IMG/VR virus record: IMGVR_UViG_3300010391_000080
Span: 1-23,098 of that record
Direction: 5' to 3' (one strand)
Source of the DNA: a virus
DNA: 23,098 bases
This document shows, piece after piece, positions 5,283 through 22,175 of this stretch. The position numbers and the translations under genes are program-made. The notes below the pieces were generated by a model. That model made no database searches. It had not been told where the DNA came from and saw nothing but the letters and a program-made list of their open reading frames with translations. Numbering within the stretch: the stretch's first letter is position 1; the number at the start of each line of letters is the position of its first letter.

Positions 5283-6251
5283 ATGCCCAGACCCACATCT
5301 GCAACCACCATTCAGAGGCCCGACCTGGGGGCGATCGCCTACGAGTATAACCAGGAGGCGAGCCAGCGGGGATTCATCGGGCTGGCGCTGCTGCCGCTCT
5401 TCGATGTGCCGGAGCAGTCGGCGGATTACCCCAAGATTCCCCTGGAAGCCCTGATTAAGCTCCAGGACAACAGGCGGGCTCCCCGGGGGAACTACGGACG
5501 CAGCGACTATGAGTTCGAAACGGGCACCTACGCCTGCAAAGAATACGGATGGGAGGAACCGGTGGACGACGTGGAGGCCAGACTCTATCGCAGGTACTTC
5601 GACGCCGAGGAAGTGGCGGCGAAGCGCTGCGTGGACATCAACCTCCGGGGGCAGGAGACGCGGATTGCGGCGATGCTGTTCAACGCCAATAATTTTACCG
5701 TTGCCGATGTGGCCATTGCCTGGAGCACCGCGGCGACCGCAGTACCAAAGGCAAACGTCGACGCCGGCAAGGATGCCATGAGGCTGGCCTCCGGACTCCT
5801 GCCCAACGCCCTGGCCATGAGCCTGAAGGTTTTTAACACCGTCATGCGCACGGCCGAGATCAAGGACGTCCTGAAATATACCAACCCGATCGAGATGAGC
5901 GGTTTTGAGGCGCAGAAACAAATGATGGCCAAGTATTTTGGCGTGGACCAGGTCCTGGTGGGAAATGCCATCAAGGACACCGCCAAGAAGGGGCAGGCAG
6001 CCTCGCTCGGAGACATCTGGGACGATGAATACTGCGGCCTGTTCAAAGTCAGCGCCGGCGGGGCGGATCTCCGCGATCCATGTTTGGGAAGGACGTTCCT
6101 GTGGACGGAGGACAGCCCGAACAACCTGGTCACGGAGCAGTACCGGGAAGAGCAGAAACGGTCCAACATCTACCGGGTGCGGCACAACGTGGATGAATGC
6201 CTGGTCTTCGCGGGGGCCGGGTACCTGTTGGGGAACATCATTCATCCGTAA
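5283..6251 (+). CDS. Major capsid protein
   Basis: A 322-aa protein that forms the icosahedral shell, expected to have the HK97 fold. Position (after scaffold and decoration protein, before the connector region), length and sequence agree. Supporting segments are DLGAIAYEYNQEASQRGFIG, LPLFDVPEQSADYPKIPLEA and YGWEEPVDDVEARLYRRYFD near the N-terminus, and KYFGVDQVLVGNAIKDTAKK and the closing VRHNVDECLVFAGAGYLLGN near the C-terminus. The start ATG 5283 follows AAGGAGG at a good distance. This pattern occurs in capsids of Mu-headed siphophages. The protease encoded upstream may trim it, but no cleavage site is evident to me. Confidence 0.9.
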   Translation: MPRPTSATTIQRPDLGAIAYEYNQEASQRGFIGLALLPLFDVPEQSADYPKIPLEALIKLQDNRRAPRGNYGRSDYEFETGTYACKEYGWEEPVDDVEARLYRRYFDAEEVAAKRCVDINLRGQETRIAAMLFNANNFTVADVAIAWSTAATAVPKANVDAGKDAMRLASGLLPNALAMSLKVFNTVMRTAEIKDVLKYTNPIEMSGFEAQKQMMAKYFGVDQVLVGNAIKDTAKKGQAASLGDIWDDEYCGLFKVSAGGADLRDPCLGRTFLWTEDSPNNLVTEQYREEQKRSNIYRVRHNVDECLVFAGAGYLLGNIIHP

Positions 6252-6275: not shown

Positions 6276-6303
6276 GTAGGGGCGATTCATGAATCGCCCC
6301 TAC
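6276..6303. repeat. 28-bp perfect palindrome (GTAGGGGCGATTC class REP-like element)
   Basis: Bases 6276-6303 read the same on both strands: GTAGGGGCGATTCA followed by its exact complement. The GTAGGGGCG...CGCCCCTAC form is a very common intergenic palindrome in many environmental bacteria and is of the type mobilised by REP-associated Y1 transposases. No T run follows it. It lies directly after the capsid gene. Confidence 0.85.
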
Positions 6304-6329: not shown

Positions 6330-6608
6330 ATGAGCGAAATCACGGCGACGATTCCGAGAGCCGTCGGGCTGGACGCCACCAACTGGATGAAGGTCCAATT
6401 CACCGACTCGGGGAACGTGCTCCTGCAGTGCCGGAGCGACGTGGATGTGTACCTGGCGAACCAGGCGAACCCCGGCGGGGCGTACTGGACGATCAAGGCC
6501 GGGAATTCCCTGGTGCTGGGGATAAATACCCCTGATTTCGAGCTCTGGGCGAAGGCTGCATCCGGGCCGGTGGAGCTGGAGATCCTGTACCTCAGCCCGG
6601 GAGCATAG
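6330..6608 (+). CDS. Small virion-associated protein, unknown
   Basis: A 92-aa protein with a clear start (CAGGAGGT before ATG 6330). It has no signal peptide and no membrane segment. The strand pattern (WMKVQFTDSGNVLLQCRSDV, DVYLANQANPGGAYWTIKAGN, FELWAKAASGPVELEILYL) predicts one small beta-sandwich, reminiscent of small phage head or fibre-associated domains that resemble carbohydrate-binding folds. It follows the capsid gene and precedes the three exported proteins. A head-surface or structural role is likely from context only; I do not recognise the family. Confidence 0.6.
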   Translation: MSEITATIPRAVGLDATNWMKVQFTDSGNVLLQCRSDVDVYLANQANPGGAYWTIKAGNSLVLGINTPDFELWAKAASGPVELEILYLSPGA

Positions 6609-6647
6609 CAAAATTGCGGAATCCGGATTGAAACGTAGGAGAAGAAC

Positions 6648-8030
6648 ATGAAAAAGGTCCTTTTCATCCTGCTCCTCATCTTTATGCTGGTTCCGGAGCC
6701 CGGGCAGGGGCAAGGTCTGGGCGTAAGTGGGACCCCATCCCTGACTGTCGAGGAAATAGACGGGGCTCCTTCCATCCGGCCTGTGAGGAAGGTGCAGGTA
6801 CCTAACGGGTCCCTGAGCGACCAGGGAAACGGGATCGTCCGGCTAACTATTTCCGGAACCGGAGACGTCCAAGGACCGGCCACGAACCATGACGGATATG
6901 TCCCCCAGTGGAACGGGGCCGACTCCAAGACTTTGAAGGACGGGATTCCGTTTTCCGCAAATGGGATCACCCTGATGGGCGAGACCTTTGCCCAGATGCT
7001 GACCTCCATCGGGGCGGCGGCGGCCGCGCATGGTCATTCCGGCGTTTACCAACCGGCGGCCGCAAATCTGACCACTTGGGCGGGGATTGCTCCTACGGCC
7101 AACGGACAGACCTTGATGGGCGAGACCTTTGCCCAGATGCTGACCTCCATCGGGGCGGCGGCGGCTTCTCATGCCCACGCGGCCACGGACCTTACCTCCG
7201 GGGCGCTGGCCTCCGTGGACCGGCTGCCGGCGCTGGCCCAGTATTATTTTTGGATCGGCAACGCATCCGGGAGGCCGGAGGCCACGAATTCGCTGCCCAT
7301 CGGATACATCCGGTCCGGCGTTAAATACTGCGACGCGGCCGACGCGACGAAGTGCTTTCAGTTCGGGCTCTCCGGCATCAGCACGGAGACGACCCGGACG
7401 ATCACCGTGCCCAACAGGGCGTTCACTTTTGATTACCTGACCACGGCGACGGAGACAAACATCACCGGCATCCTTAAAGGAACTGGTTCTCTTGTCGCGG
7501 CGGCATCTGCGGGAACGGACTATCCCGGCTTGGCTTCGACCAACGCCTTCACCGGGGCGAACACGGTGGGGGATACCTCTTCCAACAACCTCCAGAAGGT
7601 CATCCTCCAAAAAGCCACCTCGATGGCCGATCACGCCTGGCAGGGGACCGCCATCCTGGGGACGGCGGGGGAGAACCTGGCCCAGGGAGATATCGTCTAT
7701 AAGAAGTACAATGCCTCGGCCTGGAAATATTACAAATACGACTGCGACGGGACGGGTAAGCTGATCCATCCCAGCGGGATCGCCACGGCGGCGATCAGCT
7801 CGGCGGCGGACGGGGTGATTTTGATCAAAGGGGTCATGAGGGACGACACCTGGAATATCACCTCTCCGGCGGACGGGCCTACGGAGGTCTGTGCGAGCGA
7901 GACGGCCGGGGGGGTACAGCTTTGCAGCGGGTATACGCCGGGGACCGGGGACCAGGTGGTGGTGGTCGGGCTTTTGGTGGGGACCAACGTGATAGAGACG
8001 GCATTTGGGTACACCTGGGTGGAGAAGTAG
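6648..8030 (+). CDS. Exported fibre-like protein with internal duplication
   Basis: A 460-aa protein beginning with a textbook Sec signal peptide (MKKVLFILLLIFMLVPEPG, then QGQG). After it come fibre-like repeats: the 17-residue block MGETFAQMLTSIGAAAA occurs at residues about 109 and 156, each followed by an Ala/His run (HGHSG, HAHAA). Next is LPALAQYYFWIGNASGRPEA, then a beta region. The C-terminal 130 residues (GDIVYKKYNASAWKYYKYD ... GDQVVVVGLLVGTN) resemble the fibre/head-fibre domain also seen in the gene at 22187. The body therefore looks like a phage appendage, but the N-terminus directs export, unlike normal virion proteins assembled in the cytoplasm. It is first of three such genes. 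Possible roles are a surface adhesin or lysogenic conversion factor, or a virion part added outside. Function is inferred. Confidence 0.7.
   Translation: MKKVLFILLLIFMLVPEPGQGQGLGVSGTPSLTVEEIDGAPSIRPVRKVQVPNGSLSDQGNGIVRLTISGTGDVQGPATNHDGYVPQWNGADSKTLKDGIPFSANGITLMGETFAQMLTSIGAAAAAHGHSGVYQPAAANLTTWAGIAPTANGQTLMGETFAQMLTSIGAAAASHAHAATDLTSGALASVDRLPALAQYYFWIGNASGRPEATNSLPIGYIRSGVKYCDAADATKCFQFGLSGISTETTRTITVPNRAFTFDYLTTATETNITGILKGTGSLVAAASAGTDYPGLASTNAFTGANTVGDTSSNNLQKVILQKATSMADHAWQGTAILGTAGENLAQGDIVYKKYNASAWKYYKYDCDGTGKLIHPSGIATAAISSAADGVILIKGVMRDDTWNITSPADGPTEVCASETAGGVQLCSGYTPGTGDQVVVVGLLVGTNVIETAFGYTWVEK
6973..7165 (+). repeat. Identical 52-bp direct repeat inside fibre-like gene
   Basis: Bases 6973-7024 and 7114-7165 are identical; the offset is 141 nt, or 47 codons. 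Flanking codons have diverged although the protein repeat extends further. Perfect identity at DNA level points to a recent duplication or gene conversion. Confidence 0.85.
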
Positions 8031-8031
8031 A

Positions 8032-8823
8032 ATGCGAAAAATTTTCCTCGTTGCGCTGGCCTTTTTGCTGATTCCGGCTGTCTGCCTGGGGCAGAAGGTG
8101 GATGGGGTTTCCTCGCCGGCGAAGGTAGGTGGGGTGGCCGGTCCGGCGAAGGTGGCAGGGGTTGGGCTATCTGGCGCAGTCTGGTCATGCGCCGACGCGG
8201 GCTTAACCTGTGACTCGTTCGACACCAACCCTGGCTTTGATGCCAGTTGGTCCACGACTGGAACGCCAGACCCAGACTATCCCAATTCGTCGGCTTTAGC
8301 TTGTGACGCGGCTAACGTCCACTCCTTTCGAATAAACAAGACCGACGATGGGACGATCCAGGCGTATACCACGCTCACCGAGCAAAACACGTACAACAAT
8401 ATTTATTTTCTGAAGCTGGAATCTTCATCCAACGATACTACTAGACGGATCATGGTCCGTCTAGAAAATGATGTGCGTCTCCTGGTGGATATTAGCCAGT
8501 ATGTGGATGGGGGAAATTACTATTTAGCCATAAAAACGTCACAGCAGGATGAGTCGCCCGTTGAACAGGCTACGTACCAAGTCACTTTAAATGCTTTCTA
8601 TAAAATAGAAACTCACTGGTTGGCAAATCAGGCATCAGGAGGAGTCTCCGTCACGATCAACGATTTGCCTGTTAGTCTGGGTAACACGTCCACCTATAAT
8701 GGTGGCGTGAAATATGAGACGCTTCGCGCCGATGGAACGGGCGCGACCTCGCACTATGCGTTTCAAATTGATAACTGGAAATCCTCTGCCACGGCCCCGC
8801 CGGTTTGTGCGGGGAGTTATTAA
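8032..8823 (+). CDS. Exported protein with LamG/concanavalin-like domain
   Basis: A 263-aa protein. I take ATG 8032, not the in-frame ATG 8005, because it gives a clean signal peptide (MRKIFLVALAFLLIPAVCLG, then Q) and follows GGAGAAG just after the upstream stop. Next come short repeats with the motif PAKVxGV near residues 22-42, like linkers in phage fibres. The body (residues about 60-260) has the strand pattern of a concanavalin/LamG-like jelly roll, including FYKIETHWLANQASGGVSVT, where such domains carry a conserved hW....gG.v motif. That fold usually binds sugars or proteins. Bases 8380-8760 are clearly richer in A+T than the neighbours, which suggests separate acquisition. The gene ends one base before the next ATG. 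The export signal is secure; the fold is moderately so. Confidence 0.65.
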   Translation: MRKIFLVALAFLLIPAVCLGQKVDGVSSPAKVGGVAGPAKVAGVGLSGAVWSCADAGLTCDSFDTNPGFDASWSTTGTPDPDYPNSSALACDAANVHSFRINKTDDGTIQAYTTLTEQNTYNNIYFLKLESSSNDTTRRIMVRLENDVRLLVDISQYVDGGNYYLAIKTSQQDESPVEQATYQVTLNAFYKIETHWLANQASGGVSVTINDLPVSLGNTSTYNGGVKYETLRADGTGATSHYAFQIDNWKSSATAPPVCAGSY

Positions 8824-10236
8824 ATGGTCAAAATTTTTCCCCTAATCTGGATTTTACTCTTCTTTGCCCAGTCGGCATGGGCCGCGTGCAGCGGATCAAC
8901 CCCGACCTGGAGCTCTACCCCGGACCGAGCCTCAATCGCTTCCTGCGTTTCACAGGCGAGCTCCGGAGATACGATCAACGTTTCCGCCGGGGACGGAGGG
9001 ACGTGGACGACGGGGATCGTGATCGATAAACCACTCCAAATCATCGGGCCGGACTCGCAGGCATCGAACGCCTGCAATAATACCGGGGCCATGCTGAGCG
9101 CCGATCCCAGCTTGAACGCCGGCCTGTTTCAGGTCAGCCTGACCACGACCTCGCTGGTCCGTATCAGTGGATTTTATTTCGACCTGGGGACCTTCACTTC
9201 CTATGATCGGTACGGGGTGGCCATCTCCGGGAACATCACCCAGATCAGGGTGGACCACAATAAGTTTAACCGGGGAAAAGCCCAGATCCTAATAGATGGG
9301 GCTGTAAAGGGCGTGCTTGATCAGAACTGTTTTTATAACTCTAATATCTCCACCAGCCTGTTGGGCGGAGCGGCGGCGGCGCAGGGGAATCAGTCCTGGG
9401 CGGACCCCATCGTCGCCGGGATGGACATGGGCCTCAACACGCTCTACGTCGAGGACAATACTTTCACCCGGGATCAGACTCTCGCCTGCGGGAGCATAAA
9501 TCTGAACTGTCATATAGAATCGGGCCACGGAGGACGATTCGTCATCCGCCACAACACCTTCACCGGGACCTGGTGCTATAACGAATGCATTTTGGCCCAG
9601 GGCGATTGCTATGCCGACGCGGCGATTATGACCCACGGGAACGGGAACTATTATAACGGTTCGACCGATCTGCGCGGTCATCCCATCGTGGAGGTTTACA
9701 ACAACACGATCAACATGGTCAGGGTAACTGGCTATGCTTTGACCTTCAGAGGGGGGTCCGTTCTGGCCCATAATAATGCGATAACCGTGGGCATGTATCC
9801 CCAATATACATACCTCAGCCTGATTGAGGAGGAAACCTGGAGCAGCACCGTTTTCAGCCCTCTGCGGACCGCATGGCCGGCGGAAGACCAGATCTTCAAT
9901 AGTTTCTTCTGGAACAACACGGTGAACGGAAATCCCATCGAGCTGACCACCGACTCCGCAACGTTCCACGTACAGGACCGGGATTATTTTCTGCACGCCC
10001 CGGCGGCGACTGGCGGAAAGGAGACGTTCACCGGCAGGGCCGGTGCGTCAAACACCGCCCCGACGGAGGGGAGCCCCAGCACCATGCAATTCAGCTCGTC
10101 GGGGGCCAATGCCTATTACCCCTACACCCCATTTACCTATCCCCATCCGCTGAGGGCGGGCGACAATATTTTACCGGGGGGGATTACGCTAGGCGCCGGC
10201 GGCGCGGGGTCTACATTGGTTTTGGGAGGGAACTGA
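8824..10236 (+). CDS. Exported right-handed parallel beta-helix protein
   Basis: A 470-aa protein whose ATG directly follows the previous TAA. Signal peptide: MVKIFPLIWILLFFAQSAWA, with predicted cleavage after AWA, then ACSGSTPTW. The body reads as successive beta-helix rungs: IASCVSQASSGDTINVSAGD, then IDKPLQIIGPD, VRISGFYFDLGTF, ITQIRVDHNKFNRG, TLYVEDNTFT, FVIRHNTFTG, IVEVYNNTINM and VLAHNNAITV. This N-N/D-N-F/T rung pattern is typical of pectate-lyase-like folds, which include phage tailspikes and secreted polysaccharide lyases. Several Cys residues suit an exported, disulphide-bonded protein. The C-terminal 60 residues are Gly/Ala-rich. Possible roles are a surface polysaccharide-active enzyme or adhesin, or a tailspike acquired with a signal peptide. 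No catalytic residues can be assigned. Confidence 0.75.
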   Translation: MVKIFPLIWILLFFAQSAWAACSGSTPTWSSTPDRASIASCVSQASSGDTINVSAGDGGTWTTGIVIDKPLQIIGPDSQASNACNNTGAMLSADPSLNAGLFQVSLTTTSLVRISGFYFDLGTFTSYDRYGVAISGNITQIRVDHNKFNRGKAQILIDGAVKGVLDQNCFYNSNISTSLLGGAAAAQGNQSWADPIVAGMDMGLNTLYVEDNTFTRDQTLACGSINLNCHIESGHGGRFVIRHNTFTGTWCYNECILAQGDCYADAAIMTHGNGNYYNGSTDLRGHPIVEVYNNTINMVRVTGYALTFRGGSVLAHNNAITVGMYPQYTYLSLIEEETWSSTVFSPLRTAWPAEDQIFNSFFWNNTVNGNPIELTTDSATFHVQDRDYFLHAPAATGGKETFTGRAGASNTAPTEGSPSTMQFSSSGANAYYPYTPFTYPHPLRAGDNILPGGITLGAGGAGSTLVLGGN

Positions 10237-10238
10237 TC

Positions 10239-10658
10239 ATGGCCTATTGCCTTTTGGAAGACATCCGGGAAGTGATCTCCGACAAGGAGCTCATCCAGCT
10301 CACGGATGACGCCCTGACCGGGGCCATTGTCGAGAGCCGGGTCGCGCAGGGGATCGCGTCGGCCGACGCCGAGATCGACAGTTACTGCGCGGCCAGGTAC
10401 ACCGTGCCCTTCAGCCCGGTCCCCGCGGTGATCAAAAAATGCTCGGTGGATATTGCGGTCTACAACCTCCATGCCCGGCGGACCAAGACGATCCCGGAAG
10501 CCCGGCAGGTGCGGTACGACAACGCGGTGCGGATCCTCAGGGACATTGCCGAGGGGAAGGCAAGCATCGATGTCGACGTGGCGCCCGAGACCGGGGGCGT
10601 TTCCTATACCGCTCCGGATGAAAAGACGTTCACCCTGGATAAATTAAAAGGATTTTAG
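10239..10658 (+). CDS. Mu gp36-like head-tail connector (DUF1320)
   Basis: A 139-aa protein of the DUF1320 family, which closes the head after packaging and links portal to tail. Diagnostic segments are YCLLEDIREVISDKELIQLT at the start, IASADAEIDSYCAARYTVPF in the middle, VPAVIKKCSVDIAVYNLHAR and the RYDNAVRILRDIAEGKASID region. Length is normal for the family. It starts two bases after the stop of the exported beta-helix gene (GGGAGG upstream), so the inserted exported cassette is physically joined to the structural operon. The following gp37-like gene keeps Mu order. Confidence 0.9.
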   Translation: MAYCLLEDIREVISDKELIQLTDDALTGAIVESRVAQGIASADAEIDSYCAARYTVPFSPVPAVIKKCSVDIAVYNLHARRTKTIPEARQVRYDNAVRILRDIAEGKASIDVDVAPETGGVSYTAPDEKTFTLDKLKGF

Positions 10659-10663
10659 ATTGC

Positions 10664-10729
10664 AGATTTCAGATGGCAGATTTAAAAACCCGGCCTCAAA
10701 TCTGAAATCTTAAATCTGAGATCTGAAAT
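10664..10729. repeat. AT-rich inverted repeat with ATCTGAAAT words
   Basis: AGATTTCAGAT (10664-10674) is the exact inverse of ATCTGAAATCT (10700-10710). A further ATCTGAAAT lies at 10721-10729. The whole 80-nt gap between the two connector genes is made of such words. It resembles intergenic filler repeats of bacterial chromosomes, and its base composition differs from the flanking genes. The downstream gene has only a weak Shine-Dalgarno sequence. Confidence 0.65.
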
Positions 10730-17634: not shown

Positions 17635-18052
17635 GATCATCGAGGTTTTGGAATCATGGAAGGGGACCAAATGGATGCACGGAGTAGCCATAAAAGGGTA
17701 CCGGGCGGATTGCGGGCAATTCCTGCTGGCCGTATTCAAGGAATTGGGATGGTTGAGTCAGGATTATCGGACTCAAATTTATAACCGGCAGAGGGCATTG
17801 CATGATGCCTGCGCGCTGATCAGCGAAGAGATTTCGCGCGCATCGGAGATGAAGCAAATCGGTCCCCAGGGGCCCTTCAGGACGGGAGACGTTCTGGTTT
17901 TTAAACCCGGCCAGGGGGAGGGACACGTGGGAATGTACATCGGGGGAGACCGGATGATCCATTGCTCGATCAAACATGGGGTTGAGGAAATCCAGGTGAC
18001 TCATCCGATGCTCGGCCCGCTGGCCGCGGCCTGGAGGCGAGAGAACGAATGA
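17621..18052 (+). CDS. NlpC/P60-type cell-wall peptidase (tail tip)
   Basis: A 143-aa NlpC/P60-like Cys peptidase, expected to cut peptidoglycan cross-links during DNA entry, or to be a structural relative of lambda gpK. The start ATG 17621 (MEDSRIIEVLESWKGTKWMH) lies inside the end of the L-like gene and has GGAG seven bases ahead. The catalytic Cys is likely Cys31 in YRADCGQFLLAVFKELG. The His is likely His102 in GEGHVGMYIGG, and His114 (RMIHCS) fits the third polar residue. The DVLVFKPG strand before the His is typical. All key positions are present, so activity is plausible. It overlaps the tip gene by ATGA. Confidence 0.88.
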   Translation: MEDSRIIEVLESWKGTKWMHGVAIKGYRADCGQFLLAVFKELGWLSQDYRTQIYNRQRALHDACALISEEISRASEMKQIGPQGPFRTGDVLVFKPGQGEGHVGMYIGGDRMIHCSIKHGVEEIQVTHPMLGPLAAAWRRENE

Positions 18053-20169
18053 GCACGCCGGGGCAGGCAGTTCTGGGGGTTGTCGGGTTCGTCGCGGGTG
18101 GGCTGATCGGCGGGGGATTTGTCAGTTTCAACCCCTATACTGCCTATTATGGTGCGATGGCCGGCCTGATGGTCGGCGGCGCCCTCTTCCCGCCTCAGTC
18201 CGATACCGCACGGCCAACTACCGGCGGCCAGCTACTGCTTCAAACTTCCAATTATGGCGGATCGATACCCGTGACCTTTGGGCGCAGGCGCCTGTCCGCC
18301 AATTTGCTCTGGATCGGCACCCTGAACACCCAATCACATGAGGAAGGCGGCGGGGGCGGCAAAGGAGGAGGCGGCGGCGGAGGGTCCGTCAGTTATACCT
18401 ATTCGATATCGATGGCCTGGGGATTGTGCATGGCCGACAGCCCCCGGAAGAGCGTGCTCCGCGCGTGGGCGGGCAAAGACGAAATCACGGATTCGACCTT
18501 TGCAGACTGTGCGACCGTCTACGGAGGGGGCCAGACGGCTGCCGATCCGCTGATCGCCGCAGCGGTCTCCCGGGATCCGGTCTGGAAAAATCTCTGTTAT
18601 GTGGTCTTCAATGAATATCCTCTGGGCAATAGCCCGACAATCCCGAATTTCACTTTCGAGGTGGCGGACGTTTCGAGCCAATGTTTCATCGAAGCGGCGA
18701 CGAAGAGTGAAAGCACGGTTTACCGGAGAAAAATCCTTTATGCCGACGGATGGTTGTATTGCGCCGACACGGTGACCGGTCCGGACCGGCTGAGAATCTC
18801 CAAGGTGGACCCGAACAGCCTGGAAATCGTCGCCTCGACGACATTTTCCTCTGATGATTATGGCATGGCTCATGCGATTATCGATCTCCCGGACAAGCAG
18901 GTGATTGCCGTTTTGACCGAGCGCGGGTCGGGGGCGGGCGAAAGATACATTTTGGAGTTTGGCAAGGCAGACGTAACCCTTCACAACAAGCTCGCGGTTG
19001 GAGACGTTTGCACGGGGTCCGATGCGCAACTCTACGTTTGTTACTGGAGTCATGATTATGATGCGGGCTACGCCCCGATCACGGGCGGGAGCTGGCAGAA
19101 CATGTGGGCCCCCTTGGCCGCGGACACGAACAAATGTGTTTCTACCGGGGCCTATGGATCGTTGCAGACGTATTTGGGCGGGGGGAATCCATACGCGGGG
19201 TCTCATGCCTGGACCGCGACGATGGTTTATGATGCCGGTTATTATTACGTCAGTTTCTGGGGGAATGAACCGGTTGGCTGGGGCTATATTTATCCCTTTT
19301 TTAAGAAAAACCAGGAGACGGGAGGCGATACGATCAGGGCCAGCGGAGGAGCGAAATGGTTATGCAATGGACAAGCCGGGGCCCTTTATGGCATCACCGG
19401 TAAGGAGGGGACCTATCATTTAAAGAAGTTCAACAAGGAAGACCTTTCCGTTTTGTACGATCTGACGCTTCCGAATTATCCTTTTGGCTTCCCGATGATA
19501 TTCGAAAATGACCACCTCTTTTATCGGAAACAAAGTTCCTATCCGCAATCCGTGGTGAAATTATCCACCTTGGATTGGGCGGAAAAGGCGAGTTATTCCT
19601 TGACGGGTGGCGCTGCCCCGACCAAATTAACGATAATCGGCACCCTTCTGATCCTCGGGCAGGATAACCCCATCAAATTATCCAAAGAAAATCTCGTTTT
19701 TATCTGCCAGGGCACCGGTTTACATTGGGGTTCGGCCTCCTATGCCACGGACGGAGATAATCTTTTTGTCGGATTTTCCGATGCTGGAATGTGGTATCTG
19801 GAAAAATTCCAATTTAGCCTGCTGGACGTTACGCCTCAAACAATCACCAGGGCCATCATAACGAATAAACTCTGGGGTCTGGGCCTTTCCACGGGGGTAT
19901 TGGAAACGACGAAGTCCGCGGCCGCGGAGGCCTTTGCCACGGAAAAGGACCTTCTCATGTCCGTGGTTTTCGATCATCAGAGGAGCGTTCTTGACGGCCT
20001 GCAATATGTTCTCCAGCATCATGATGGATTTATCACCTACATGAACGGGCAGATCGCTCATCGACAGCTGACGATGGAAGGCGAGGCGGTGCAATTCACC
20101 GCGTCCACCAGGCTCACCGACGATTTTGCGGACGGAGTCAAAGGCGAGCAGTGGGAGAAGATCGAATGA
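18049..20169 (+). CDS. Tail tip (gpJ-like) protein, N-terminal part, with beta-propeller-like insertion
   Basis: A 706-aa protein in the tip/host-recognition slot. The N-terminus has small-residue hydrophobic segments (VVGFVAGGLIGGGFVSFNP, YYGAMAGLMVGGALFPP), then SNYGGSIPVTFGRRRLSANL and a Gly-rich loop at about 100-112. Together these are characteristic of GTA/lambda-like tip proteins. Residues about 215-620 are a long repetitive beta region (RRKILYADGWLYCADTVTGP, then KQVIAVLTERGS, WLCNGQAGALYGITGKEGTY, DNLFVGFSDAGMWYLEKF). They read like blades of a propeller inserted into the tip core. The core resumes at ITNKLWGLGLSTGVLETTKS. The frame ends in TRLTDDFADGVKGEQWEKIE, within what looks like the first strand of a sugar-binding-like domain that the next frame completes. 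Confidence 0.72.
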   Translation: MSTPGQAVLGVVGFVAGGLIGGGFVSFNPYTAYYGAMAGLMVGGALFPPQSDTARPTTGGQLLLQTSNYGGSIPVTFGRRRLSANLLWIGTLNTQSHEEGGGGGKGGGGGGGSVSYTYSISMAWGLCMADSPRKSVLRAWAGKDEITDSTFADCATVYGGGQTAADPLIAAAVSRDPVWKNLCYVVFNEYPLGNSPTIPNFTFEVADVSSQCFIEAATKSESTVYRRKILYADGWLYCADTVTGPDRLRISKVDPNSLEIVASTTFSSDDYGMAHAIIDLPDKQVIAVLTERGSGAGERYILEFGKADVTLHNKLAVGDVCTGSDAQLYVCYWSHDYDAGYAPITGGSWQNMWAPLAADTNKCVSTGAYGSLQTYLGGGNPYAGSHAWTATMVYDAGYYYVSFWGNEPVGWGYIYPFFKKNQETGGDTIRASGGAKWLCNGQAGALYGITGKEGTYHLKKFNKEDLSVLYDLTLPNYPFGFPMIFENDHLFYRKQSSYPQSVVKLSTLDWAEKASYSLTGGAAPTKLTIIGTLLILGQDNPIKLSKENLVFICQGTGLHWGSASYATDGDNLFVGFSDAGMWYLEKFQFSLLDVTPQTITRAIITNKLWGLGLSTGVLETTKSAAAEAFATEKDLLMSVVFDHQRSVLDGLQYVLQHHDGFITYMNGQIAHRQLTMEGEAVQFTASTRLTDDFADGVKGEQWEKIE

Positions 20170-22175
20170 GGTCCGTAGCCGAAGCCGGGGGAAAACTGAC
20201 CATTACCCTCTCGAACGAAGCCGCCGGGAGAGAGGCCGGATACCGGTCCGCGAAGCCGGTCATCGGGGCCTTTGACGCCCAGGCGGACTTCTCCGATTTT
20301 GCCGTCACGGCTCCCGGGGCGGATGAAGGATGGGGCGGGATCCGTTTCAGAATCTCGGACAACGACCTGGCTGAGATCAAGAGGGCCAAGACCGGGTCCA
20401 CGGACAGGATCTCTGCGCGGATACTCATTGAGGGGACTACGTATACCGCGGGGGCGGATAGTTCGGCGGTCGCCGGAAAATTCAGGATCAAACGCGATGG
20501 CATGGGGATCTCCTGCCAGTATGACGTGGGCGCGGGCTGGGTGATTCTCTTGAACAAGGCCACTTTTTCTACGGCTTTGGGCAAATTGTCCCTCCTGGCG
20601 GGAGTCGGCGCGACCGGCGTTGACGCGGCCATGTCATTTTTGGGCCTATCCTTTTATGAATCCCCTAACAGCATTTATGAAGACCATGTGCCGAAAGGAA
20701 CCGGGGATGAGAAGGAGGAGGGAGTATACCCGATCCAGGCGAACCGCAAAGGGCACAGGGAATATAAAAACCGGATCAATGTGCAGTTTACCAAGAGGGA
20801 TAAGGATTATGTCCAGGGAGTCGCGATGGCAGACGACATCGTGGATATCGATAAATTCGGCCTCCAGGACGGGAGCATGCAACTGGATGGGTTCTGCATC
20901 TTTGCCCGGGCGAGCAAAATGGGATGGCTTTTCCTCCGGAAAGGTTTGATGAATCCGCAGGTCCTGGATTTTAAGCTGGGCCCCCAGAGCCTGGGTTGCG
21001 CTCCGGGGGATGTGCGGTTTATCTCCGATAAGCATCTCGAATTGAATGCCCGCGGCATCCGGATTCTCAACATCAGTGAGGGGCCGGACTACGTACTCGA
21101 AGTAAACGCGGCGGAAGAAGAAGATTTTTCCGATCTGGTCACGTCCGGGAGCGACACCAGTCAGCCCGGGGCGATCGGATCTCTCCACGGCGATCCGGGA
21201 GACGTGGTCAGGCTCACGCCGTACGAATACCCTTCCCTTTTTGCCAGGTCTTGTACTCTAGGAATCTCTTTCTCCCGTCCGGCCAACGATTCCTGGGCGG
21301 CCAGCGCCCTTTTCCAGGCATACTCGGCGGTCGGCGATTATCTTTTTAAGGAGAGTGAAAACAAGAACGGGATCACGGGGACGGTGTACCAGGTCGGAAT
21401 GGATGGGATAACGGCATTCGTGACCGTCGACCTGGACTATGACTACACCCTGGAATCCCTGGCTAGCATCGATGCCCTCCTCCAAACCCCCGGGAAAAAT
21501 TTCGGAATTTCCATGACCGGGAGCGGGAATAAGATTTTCCGGTATCAGACGGCCACTCTGGTCTCCGCCAGGCGGTGGAAATTGACGGGCTTTTTTTATG
21601 ACCTGGCGGGATTTCCATCGATGAATTCTTACGGGGCGATCGCCGCGGCCGATGTCGTTATCCTGGATACCCCCTACCAGGTCCCCGTGCCGGATGTGGA
21701 CAAATTCAGGGCGCTCTATTTCAAGATGCCGTCGGCGAACTTCGCCGGCGAGGTGCAGCCCCTGGCGGATCTGGGATCGGTAACCATCACGCCCCAGGCA
21801 TTGTCGGACACGCCCCTGCCGCCGTGGGGAATTAAAGTGGGGGATTATTACCTCGACGAAGGGCTTTCGGCAAGCCAGGAGGCCGGCGATATCGCGCTGG
21901 CGTGGTCTTCGCGCAACCGCTTCGGCGACGGGATGTACGTCTACGATCGCGCGGATGCGCCAACGGATGACGCCGATTTTAAGAACTTTATCCTGGAGAT
22001 ACATCAAGGGGCAAACCTGCTCCGGACGGTGACCCAGACTGGAAAGAGCTTCACTTATACGACGGCCATGCAAACGGCTGACGGCGGGCCTTTTACGGCC
22101 TATACCTGTAAACTCAAACAGGAGTGCAACCTGGCCTTCAGCGACCAGGTTGTCTTCACCGTGACCACGGTTTAA
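20166..22175 (+). CDS. Tail tip (gpJ-like) protein, C-terminal part
   Basis: A 669-aa protein. ATG 20166 overlaps the previous stop (ATGA). Residues 1-155 (VAEAGGKLTITLSNEAAGRE, DADFSDF-like, GWGGIRFRISDNDLAEIKRA) look like the remainder of a concanavalin-like domain begun in the previous frame. Residues about 175-325 have the signature of gpJ-type hub proteins: REYKNRINVQFTKRDKDYVQ, VAMADDIVDIDKFGLQDGSM, FARASKMGWLFLRKGLMNPQ, SLGCAPGDVRFISDKHL and IRILNISEGPDYVLEVNAAEEE. Later segments are beta-rich (fibronectin/Ig-like), ending LAFSDQVVFTVTTV. Together the two frames equal one large J-like protein. They may be joined by -1 slippage, be two coupled subunits, or mark a frameshift mutation. 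The second half clearly belongs to the tip; how it is expressed is open. Confidence 0.7.
   Translation: MRSVAEAGGKLTITLSNEAAGREAGYRSAKPVIGAFDAQADFSDFAVTAPGADEGWGGIRFRISDNDLAEIKRAKTGSTDRISARILIEGTTYTAGADSSAVAGKFRIKRDGMGISCQYDVGAGWVILLNKATFSTALGKLSLLAGVGATGVDAAMSFLGLSFYESPNSIYEDHVPKGTGDEKEEGVYPIQANRKGHREYKNRINVQFTKRDKDYVQGVAMADDIVDIDKFGLQDGSMQLDGFCIFARASKMGWLFLRKGLMNPQVLDFKLGPQSLGCAPGDVRFISDKHLELNARGIRILNISEGPDYVLEVNAAEEEDFSDLVTSGSDTSQPGAIGSLHGDPGDVVRLTPYEYPSLFARSCTLGISFSRPANDSWAASALFQAYSAVGDYLFKESENKNGITGTVYQVGMDGITAFVTVDLDYDYTLESLASIDALLQTPGKNFGISMTGSGNKIFRYQTATLVSARRWKLTGFFYDLAGFPSMNSYGAIAAADVVILDTPYQVPVPDVDKFRALYFKMPSANFAGEVQPLADLGSVTITPQALSDTPLPPWGIKVGDYYLDEGLSASQEAGDIALAWSSRNRFGDGMYVYDRADAPTDDADFKNFILEIHQGANLLRTVTQTGKSFTYTTAMQTADGGPFTAYTCKLKQECNLAFSDQVVFTVTTV

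Follow-up and report, generated by a model that had tools for sequence, protein, structure and literature searches.

The 23,098-base viral fragment analysed here (the window; IMG/VR record IMGVR_UViG_3300010391_000080, positions 1 to 23,098) contains a Mu-like head gene block together with tail genes, and inside the head block, between the gene of the major capsid protein and that of a gp36-like adaptor, lie three consecutive genes, termed A, B and C, each of which starts with a predicted Sec signal peptide (Table 1). We lean, with moderate confidence, towards the view that this trio is a late exported set aimed at surface polysaccharide, the products of which would be kept in the periplasm and freed at lysis. 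It is usually assumed that structural proteins of tailed phages remain cytoplasmic until lysis. Here, fibre-type genes are repeatedly found with predicted cleavable export signals, beside genes for lectins and polysaccharide enzymes, in virion operons of unrelated phages. The first-pass annotation of this DNA had proposed that A, B and C form an exported multi-gene set, and the layout, the signal peptides and the recurrence of such sets in several unrelated backbones bear this proposal out, export itself being predicted.

Signal peptides, start sites and protein families of the trio

The N-termini of A, B and C are canonical: all three have a basic n-region, a hydrophobic core of 12–15 residues and a small-x-small cleavage site. 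Signal peptides were called by a home-made rule-based predictor, that gave about 1% positives on shuffled N-termini, and in the window it flags 3 of 26 genes, exactly A, B and C, as the first reading of the sequence had anticipated. The background was taken from 27 loci fetched via the capsid gene, thus not chosen for signal peptides, in which 18 of 443 genes (4%) were positive and no run of three occurred; triples of signal-peptide genes expected in the window amount to about 0.0016. A Shine-Dalgarno (SD) sequence of GGAG type is located 7–9 nt upstream of each ATG. Since every one of the three starts has its own SD, the proteins are most simply read as translated from the signal peptide and not from a downstream start, and the possibility raised beforehand, that the true starts lie downstream of these N-termini, finds no support. 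All three open reading frames (ORFs) are complete, and the very short spacing noticed at first sight (0–2 nt) was confirmed, with gaps of 1 nt between A and B, 0 nt between B and C and 2 nt between C and the gp36-like gene.

What kind of proteins are these? Relatives of C at 35–46% identity are present in L019, L020 and L021, and further ones in L041, L109, L107 and L108. The Beta_helix domain PF13229 is recognised in the relative from L021 (E 3e-5) and C itself gives a weak match to a NosD-type beta-helix, so that the right-handed beta-helix predicted for C is supported through its family. The putative fibre-like nature of A rests on phage-fibre-type motifs and on its C-terminal part, which is 42% identical over 60 amino acids (aa) to a protein without signal peptide on a different phage contig. 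The third fold named in the first-pass annotation, LamG-like for B, was not confirmed and is a guess: B has no match above noise in Pfam, PHROG or NCBIfam, hence none to a LamG/ConA profile, and AlphaFold models of A and B, calculated without alignments, reached predicted local distance difference test (pLDDT) values of 33–34, B (pLDDT 33) being all-beta in its low-confidence model. Among annotated phages no relatives of A or of its C-terminal part were found, and no tblastn match of C. The slot was also considered as a plain lysis cassette, which was rejected, as holin, endolysin and spanin signatures were all not found in A–C.

Related sets in unrelated phages

The search for trios of the same kind in other phages was successful in L019, L041, L109 and ctLwi270. 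In the first three, the relative of C is the last gene in a run of three to four consecutive signal-peptide genes. L019, an unrelated phage, has four such genes with the beta-helix last and a portal-type fusion gene upstream; in the podovirus L041 three of them are placed between the portal gene and the presumed scaffold and capsid genes; in L109 three follow a 2045-aa phage protein, and this contig also carries chromosomal genes of a Desulfobacterales metagenome-assembled genome, i.e., the set belongs to a prophage. The gene order in these runs is a larger first gene (of fibre type in L041 and L109, where it matches tail-fibre PHROGs in the latter at 3e-12), a small protein and the beta-helix. 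Seven prophage regions with distant capsid relatives (phylum of G007) did not contain such a trio, the interval between capsid and gp36 being short in five of them.

The first gene of L041 has a protein match in the complete podovirus genome ctLwi270 (MW202554.1), in which the portal is followed by a fibre (846 aa), a 195-aa protein, a LamG_3 lectin (Laminin_G_3 match 8e-14) and a GH28-type beta-helix, all with signal peptides and with overlaps of 1–14 nt. The 195-aa gene between fibre and lectin is unannotated in the deposit (L044 10237–10824, equal to MW202554.1 26465–27052). With the ctLwi270 fibre as a query, 37 IMG/VR loci were obtained, 32 of them non-redundant. Runs of at least three signal-peptide genes occurred in 10 of the 32, compared with a mean of 3.5 and a maximum of 9 in 1000 permutations. 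The run lengths are underestimates, because the gene caller overlooked some signal-peptide starts. The first-gene family of ctLwi270 has no homology to A of the window by BLAST, therefore what the fibre statistics back is the class, with no direct bearing on A.

The runs of different phages have little sequence in common and agree in the kinds of genes: they combine a fibre with a small protein, LamG- or lyase-like where it is recognisable, and with either a beta-helix or an enzyme. The enzyme domains of the sister sets include Apiosidase (1e-41, L062) and GH28/pectate-lyase-like domains, as well as Polysacc_lyase and PL14 at weak E-values; polysaccharide-lyase-like proteins are found in the sets of L055, L061 and L078. 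Relatives of C with signal-like N-termini are encoded in two apparent exopolysaccharide (EPS) loci of Desulfobacterota (L107 7431–8852 and L108 8001–9374), that are rich in glycosyltransferase-type and other EPS-type genes. These two proteins belong to the same family as C; unlike that of C, their genes are chromosomal and do not form a trio with one of fibre type. Together, the lectin and enzyme domains of the sister sets and the EPS surroundings of the relatives of C lend support to the earlier idea of a surface- or polysaccharide-binding function. In four related phage contigs (L064, L077, L087 and L090) the last protein of the set ends with GGGRR(L/F)(L/F)HMW.

The signal-positive fibres are also rich in cysteine, which counts in favour of real export. 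In the ctLwi270-type family a signal peptide is present in all but few complete genes once alternative starts are allowed, and the 25 signal-positive fibres contain 173 Cys in 11,316 aa, compared with 2 Cys in 2,146 aa of four signal-less relatives; when one more short signal-less ORF (4 Cys in 120 aa), which is probably 5′-truncated, is included, p = 0.02. As the loci are interrelated, these counts are not independent. The C-terminal domain of exported fibres has six invariant residues, three Cys among them, in 14 of 14 aligned sequences, and it gave one marginal match among 398 host genomes (phylum of G009). Both C (L020) and the fibres (L046, L047, L048 and L086) also have signal-less relatives, so within these families the signal is a trait that can be switched.

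Possible roles of the predicted exported proteins

According to the reading that we prefer, A, B and C would be transcribed with the virion genes, made late and sent via Sec to the periplasm, where they would fold, probably with disulfides. A would serve as a fibre-type adhesin, B as a small beta-rich and possibly carbohydrate-binding protein, and C as a beta-helix protein active on polysaccharide. The three would build up outside the cytoplasm, leave together with the virions at lysis and then bind and cut or modify the polysaccharide of the host surface or matrix, by which exit and spread of the progeny would be aided. Such phages would thus probably load the host envelope with sugar-binding and sugar-cutting proteins while the particles are being built. 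This preference is favoured by the coupling to late genes and the fibre-plus-polysaccharide make-up of the sets, as well as by the relatives of C in EPS-like loci and by the records without a recognisable integrase.

Several points weigh on the other side. The localisation and activity of A–C are predicted from sequence, the signal peptides depend on a home-made rule and not on SignalP, and the gene calling was mechanical, on contigs that are in many cases incomplete. A and B are without detectable close relatives (none among viral_contigs), so that the window is tied to the wider class by C and the layout only. Catalytic residues were not identified in C, and a demonstrable catalytic domain was not found in A–C, Apiosidase and GH28 occurring in the sister sets. 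Within the window alone the Cys excess is weak (1.5 vs. 0.9%, p = 0.07), and the signal-less beta-helix of L020 is as Cys-rich (1.9%) as C. The EPS label of both host loci was read by eye from the gene sequences, without a family search. Finally, Sec delivers proteins only to the periplasm, which leaves the passage of the outer membrane before lysis unexplained.

Could the exported proteins be appendages, added to the virion outside the cytoplasm? In such a case the fibre and its partners would bind to the virion after lysis or during envelope passage, and C-terminal docking peptides would provide the particle with disulfide-bonded receptor-binding or enzyme parts; we regard this as unlikely, yet as the alternative that survives best. 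The first genes are of phage fibre families, as the tail-fibre matches in L109 indicate, with signal-less relatives in other phages. Moreover, a common ending, Gly-rich and followed by LxLLG[VA]G, is often found on a protein encoded near the fibre, with 17 signal-positive examples that otherwise differ in sequence. Signal-negative proteins with an ending of this type are mostly the capsid's own C-terminus. In ctMEh928 the fibre has no signal peptide, and the gene that follows it still encodes this ending, which therefore does not serve as an export signal and may be a docking peptide. In the window, however, A and B are without the motif and C, with its terminal STLVLGGN, only loosely resembles it. 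The ctLwi270 genome additionally carries signal-less tail-collar and tail-fibre genes, so that this phage does not depend on its exported set alone for receptor binding; the set comes on top of these genes. We know of no tailed phage that adds parts after Sec export, which also counts against appendages. A broader form of this idea appears to us more doubtful still: in many environmental tailed phages, an exported set of fibre, small protein and polysaccharide enzyme would fold oxidatively in the periplasm and dock on the virions at lysis via the conserved C-terminal peptide, as a second, extracytoplasmic stage of assembly.

Lysogenic conversion, which had also been suggested for the trio, was weakened by the analysis and is considered improbable as an explanation of A–C. 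It would have the three proteins, in a manner comparable to Lom, displayed or secreted by the lysogen as adhesin or matrix proteins or as a block to superinfection. There is a precedent in lambda lom, a signal-peptide gene placed among tail genes and expressed in lysogens (PMC12309495), and the set of L109 lies in a prophage within chromosomal sequence. The G+C content over B and C (window 8000–10000) is 52–57%, compared with roughly 58–64% in the head genes on either side, a drop of the kind seen in acquired genes, which suggests a later acquisition. On the other hand, promoter- and terminator-like sites around the trio are no more numerous than in shuffles, and the 0–2 nt spacing couples it tightly to virion genes. 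A recognisable integrase is present in 4 of 11 records with such sets and was not detected in the other seven, i.e., complete ctLwi270 and six more, so that, as a class, such sets do not behave like morons, which are carried by temperate phages. Lysogenic conversion is possible for some sets and is not their common denominator.

Very improbable is the view of the sets as carbon-scavenging auxiliary genes, whose secreted carbohydrate-active enzymes (CAZymes) would feed oligosaccharides to the infected host, as was proposed for glycoside hydrolases of soil viruses. The Apiosidase, GH28, PL-type and LamG domains of the sister sets would fit, and active CAZymes, e.g., a chitosanase, are encoded by soil viruses (PMC9485262), but genes expressed together with the late virion genes would come at a poor time for feeding the host, the sets frequently include a fibre-type gene, and transport or catabolism genes were not seen adjoining the sets. 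Hardly credible is a reading in which the hydrophobic N-termini are due to chance or stay on as uncleaved anchors, the proteins being ordinary cytoplasmic virion parts: signal-less relatives of the C-terminal segment of A, of C and of the fibres would be in line with it, and the canonical cleavage sites, the SD at each start, the three neighbouring positives where the background is 4% and the repeated recurrence with unrelated sequences argue against it.

Known systems and features of the window

For each single part of the set there is something similar among known systems, but not for the set as a whole or for its export. Lom of lambda, like the trio, is a signal-peptide gene inside a virion gene block, but it is a single outer-membrane beta-barrel expressed in lysogens, whereas the trio joins a fibre-type, a small and a beta-helix protein in coupling to late genes. 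Tailspikes and depolymerases, including free ones, share with C the beta-helix fold and the probable polysaccharide target. They fold in the cytoplasm and are found on the virion or go out at lysis, without a signal peptide, while C combines the beta-helix fold of a virion tailspike with a predicted Sec signal peptide at its N-terminus, where a tailspike would have a virion-binding domain and no export signal. Carbohydrate-active or lectin domains of environmental phages were described as single auxiliary metabolic genes (AMGs), i.e., CAZymes in soil viruses (PMC9485262) and ConA-like lectins in groundwater phages (PMC12911398); the sets reported here are co-directional, include a fibre-type gene and lie in the virion operon. 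By word search, neither signal peptides nor secretion are mentioned in PMC9485262, nor signal peptides in PMC12911398. In the open-licence literature we found nothing that describes sets of several signal-peptide genes, fibre-type genes among them, inside virion operons. Annotation pipelines that label gene by gene, as "tail fiber", "lectin AMG" or "hypothetical", would miss such a set. If the preferred reading of a late, polysaccharide-directed export holds, an export step would be added to the phage late programme, and there would be a testable way for phages to act on the host matrix before or at lysis; were the products also on virions, the picture of tailed-phage assembly would change.

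Table 1. The trio, its predicted signal peptides and the adjoining head genes (positions in the window).
Feature	Position	Strand	Evidence
Major capsid protein (phrog_1005), left border of the trio slot	5283..6251	+	PHROG E 2e-49; 17 IMG/VR relatives
Small head-region protein, 92 aa, without signal peptide	6330..6608	+	Position; without family match
Gene A, predicted exported fibre-type protein, 460 aa, acidic, 5 Cys	6648..8030	+	ORF; SD AGGAG 6637–6641; fibre-type motifs
Predicted Sec signal peptide of A, about 21 aa	6648..6710	+	MKKVLFILLLIFMLVPEPGQG, cleavage before Q; rule-based prediction
Gene B, predicted exported protein, 263 aa from ATG	8032..8823	+	ORF; SD GGAG 8021–8024
Predicted Sec signal peptide of B, about 20 aa	8032..8091	+	MRKIFLVALAFLLIPAVCLG, cleavage before Q; rule-based prediction
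Gene C, predicted exported right-handed beta-helix protein, 470 aa, 9 Cys	8824..10236	+	ORF; SD GGGGAG 8811–8816; family relatives
Predicted Sec signal peptide of C, about 20 aa, cleavage site AWA/A	8824..8883	+	MVKIFPLIWILLFFAQSAWA, cleavage before A; rule-based prediction
Mu gp36-like head-tail adaptor, right border of the slot	10239..10658	+	PF07030 E 1e-34; phrog_195 E 4e-44

The head block consists of genes for portal, MuF-type minor head protein, head maturation protease, capsid and the gp36-like adaptor. In the capsid relatives L006 and L009, small genes of transmembrane or signal type and phrog_1501 (unknown function) are located between the capsid and later genes. Between the capsid gene of the window and the next ORF there is a perfect 28-bp palindrome, GTAGGGGCGATTCA/TGAATCGCCCCTAC (6276–6303); an exact copy of its 22-bp core was not found in the other fetched loci. 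Short repeats of the AAATCTGAAAT type with inverted copies, and AGGCGCAAGGTA, lie in the gaps after gp36 (10651–10729) and before position 2371 (2302–2337). The MuF-type minor head protein (phrog_220, 1010–1729) appears split over the ORFs 1010–1519 and 1526–1729, as from a frame change or an assembly error. The phrog_4271 tail protein (18049–22175) is likewise in two parts, the successive ORFs matching positions 5–207 and 838–1282 of the 1309 of the profile.

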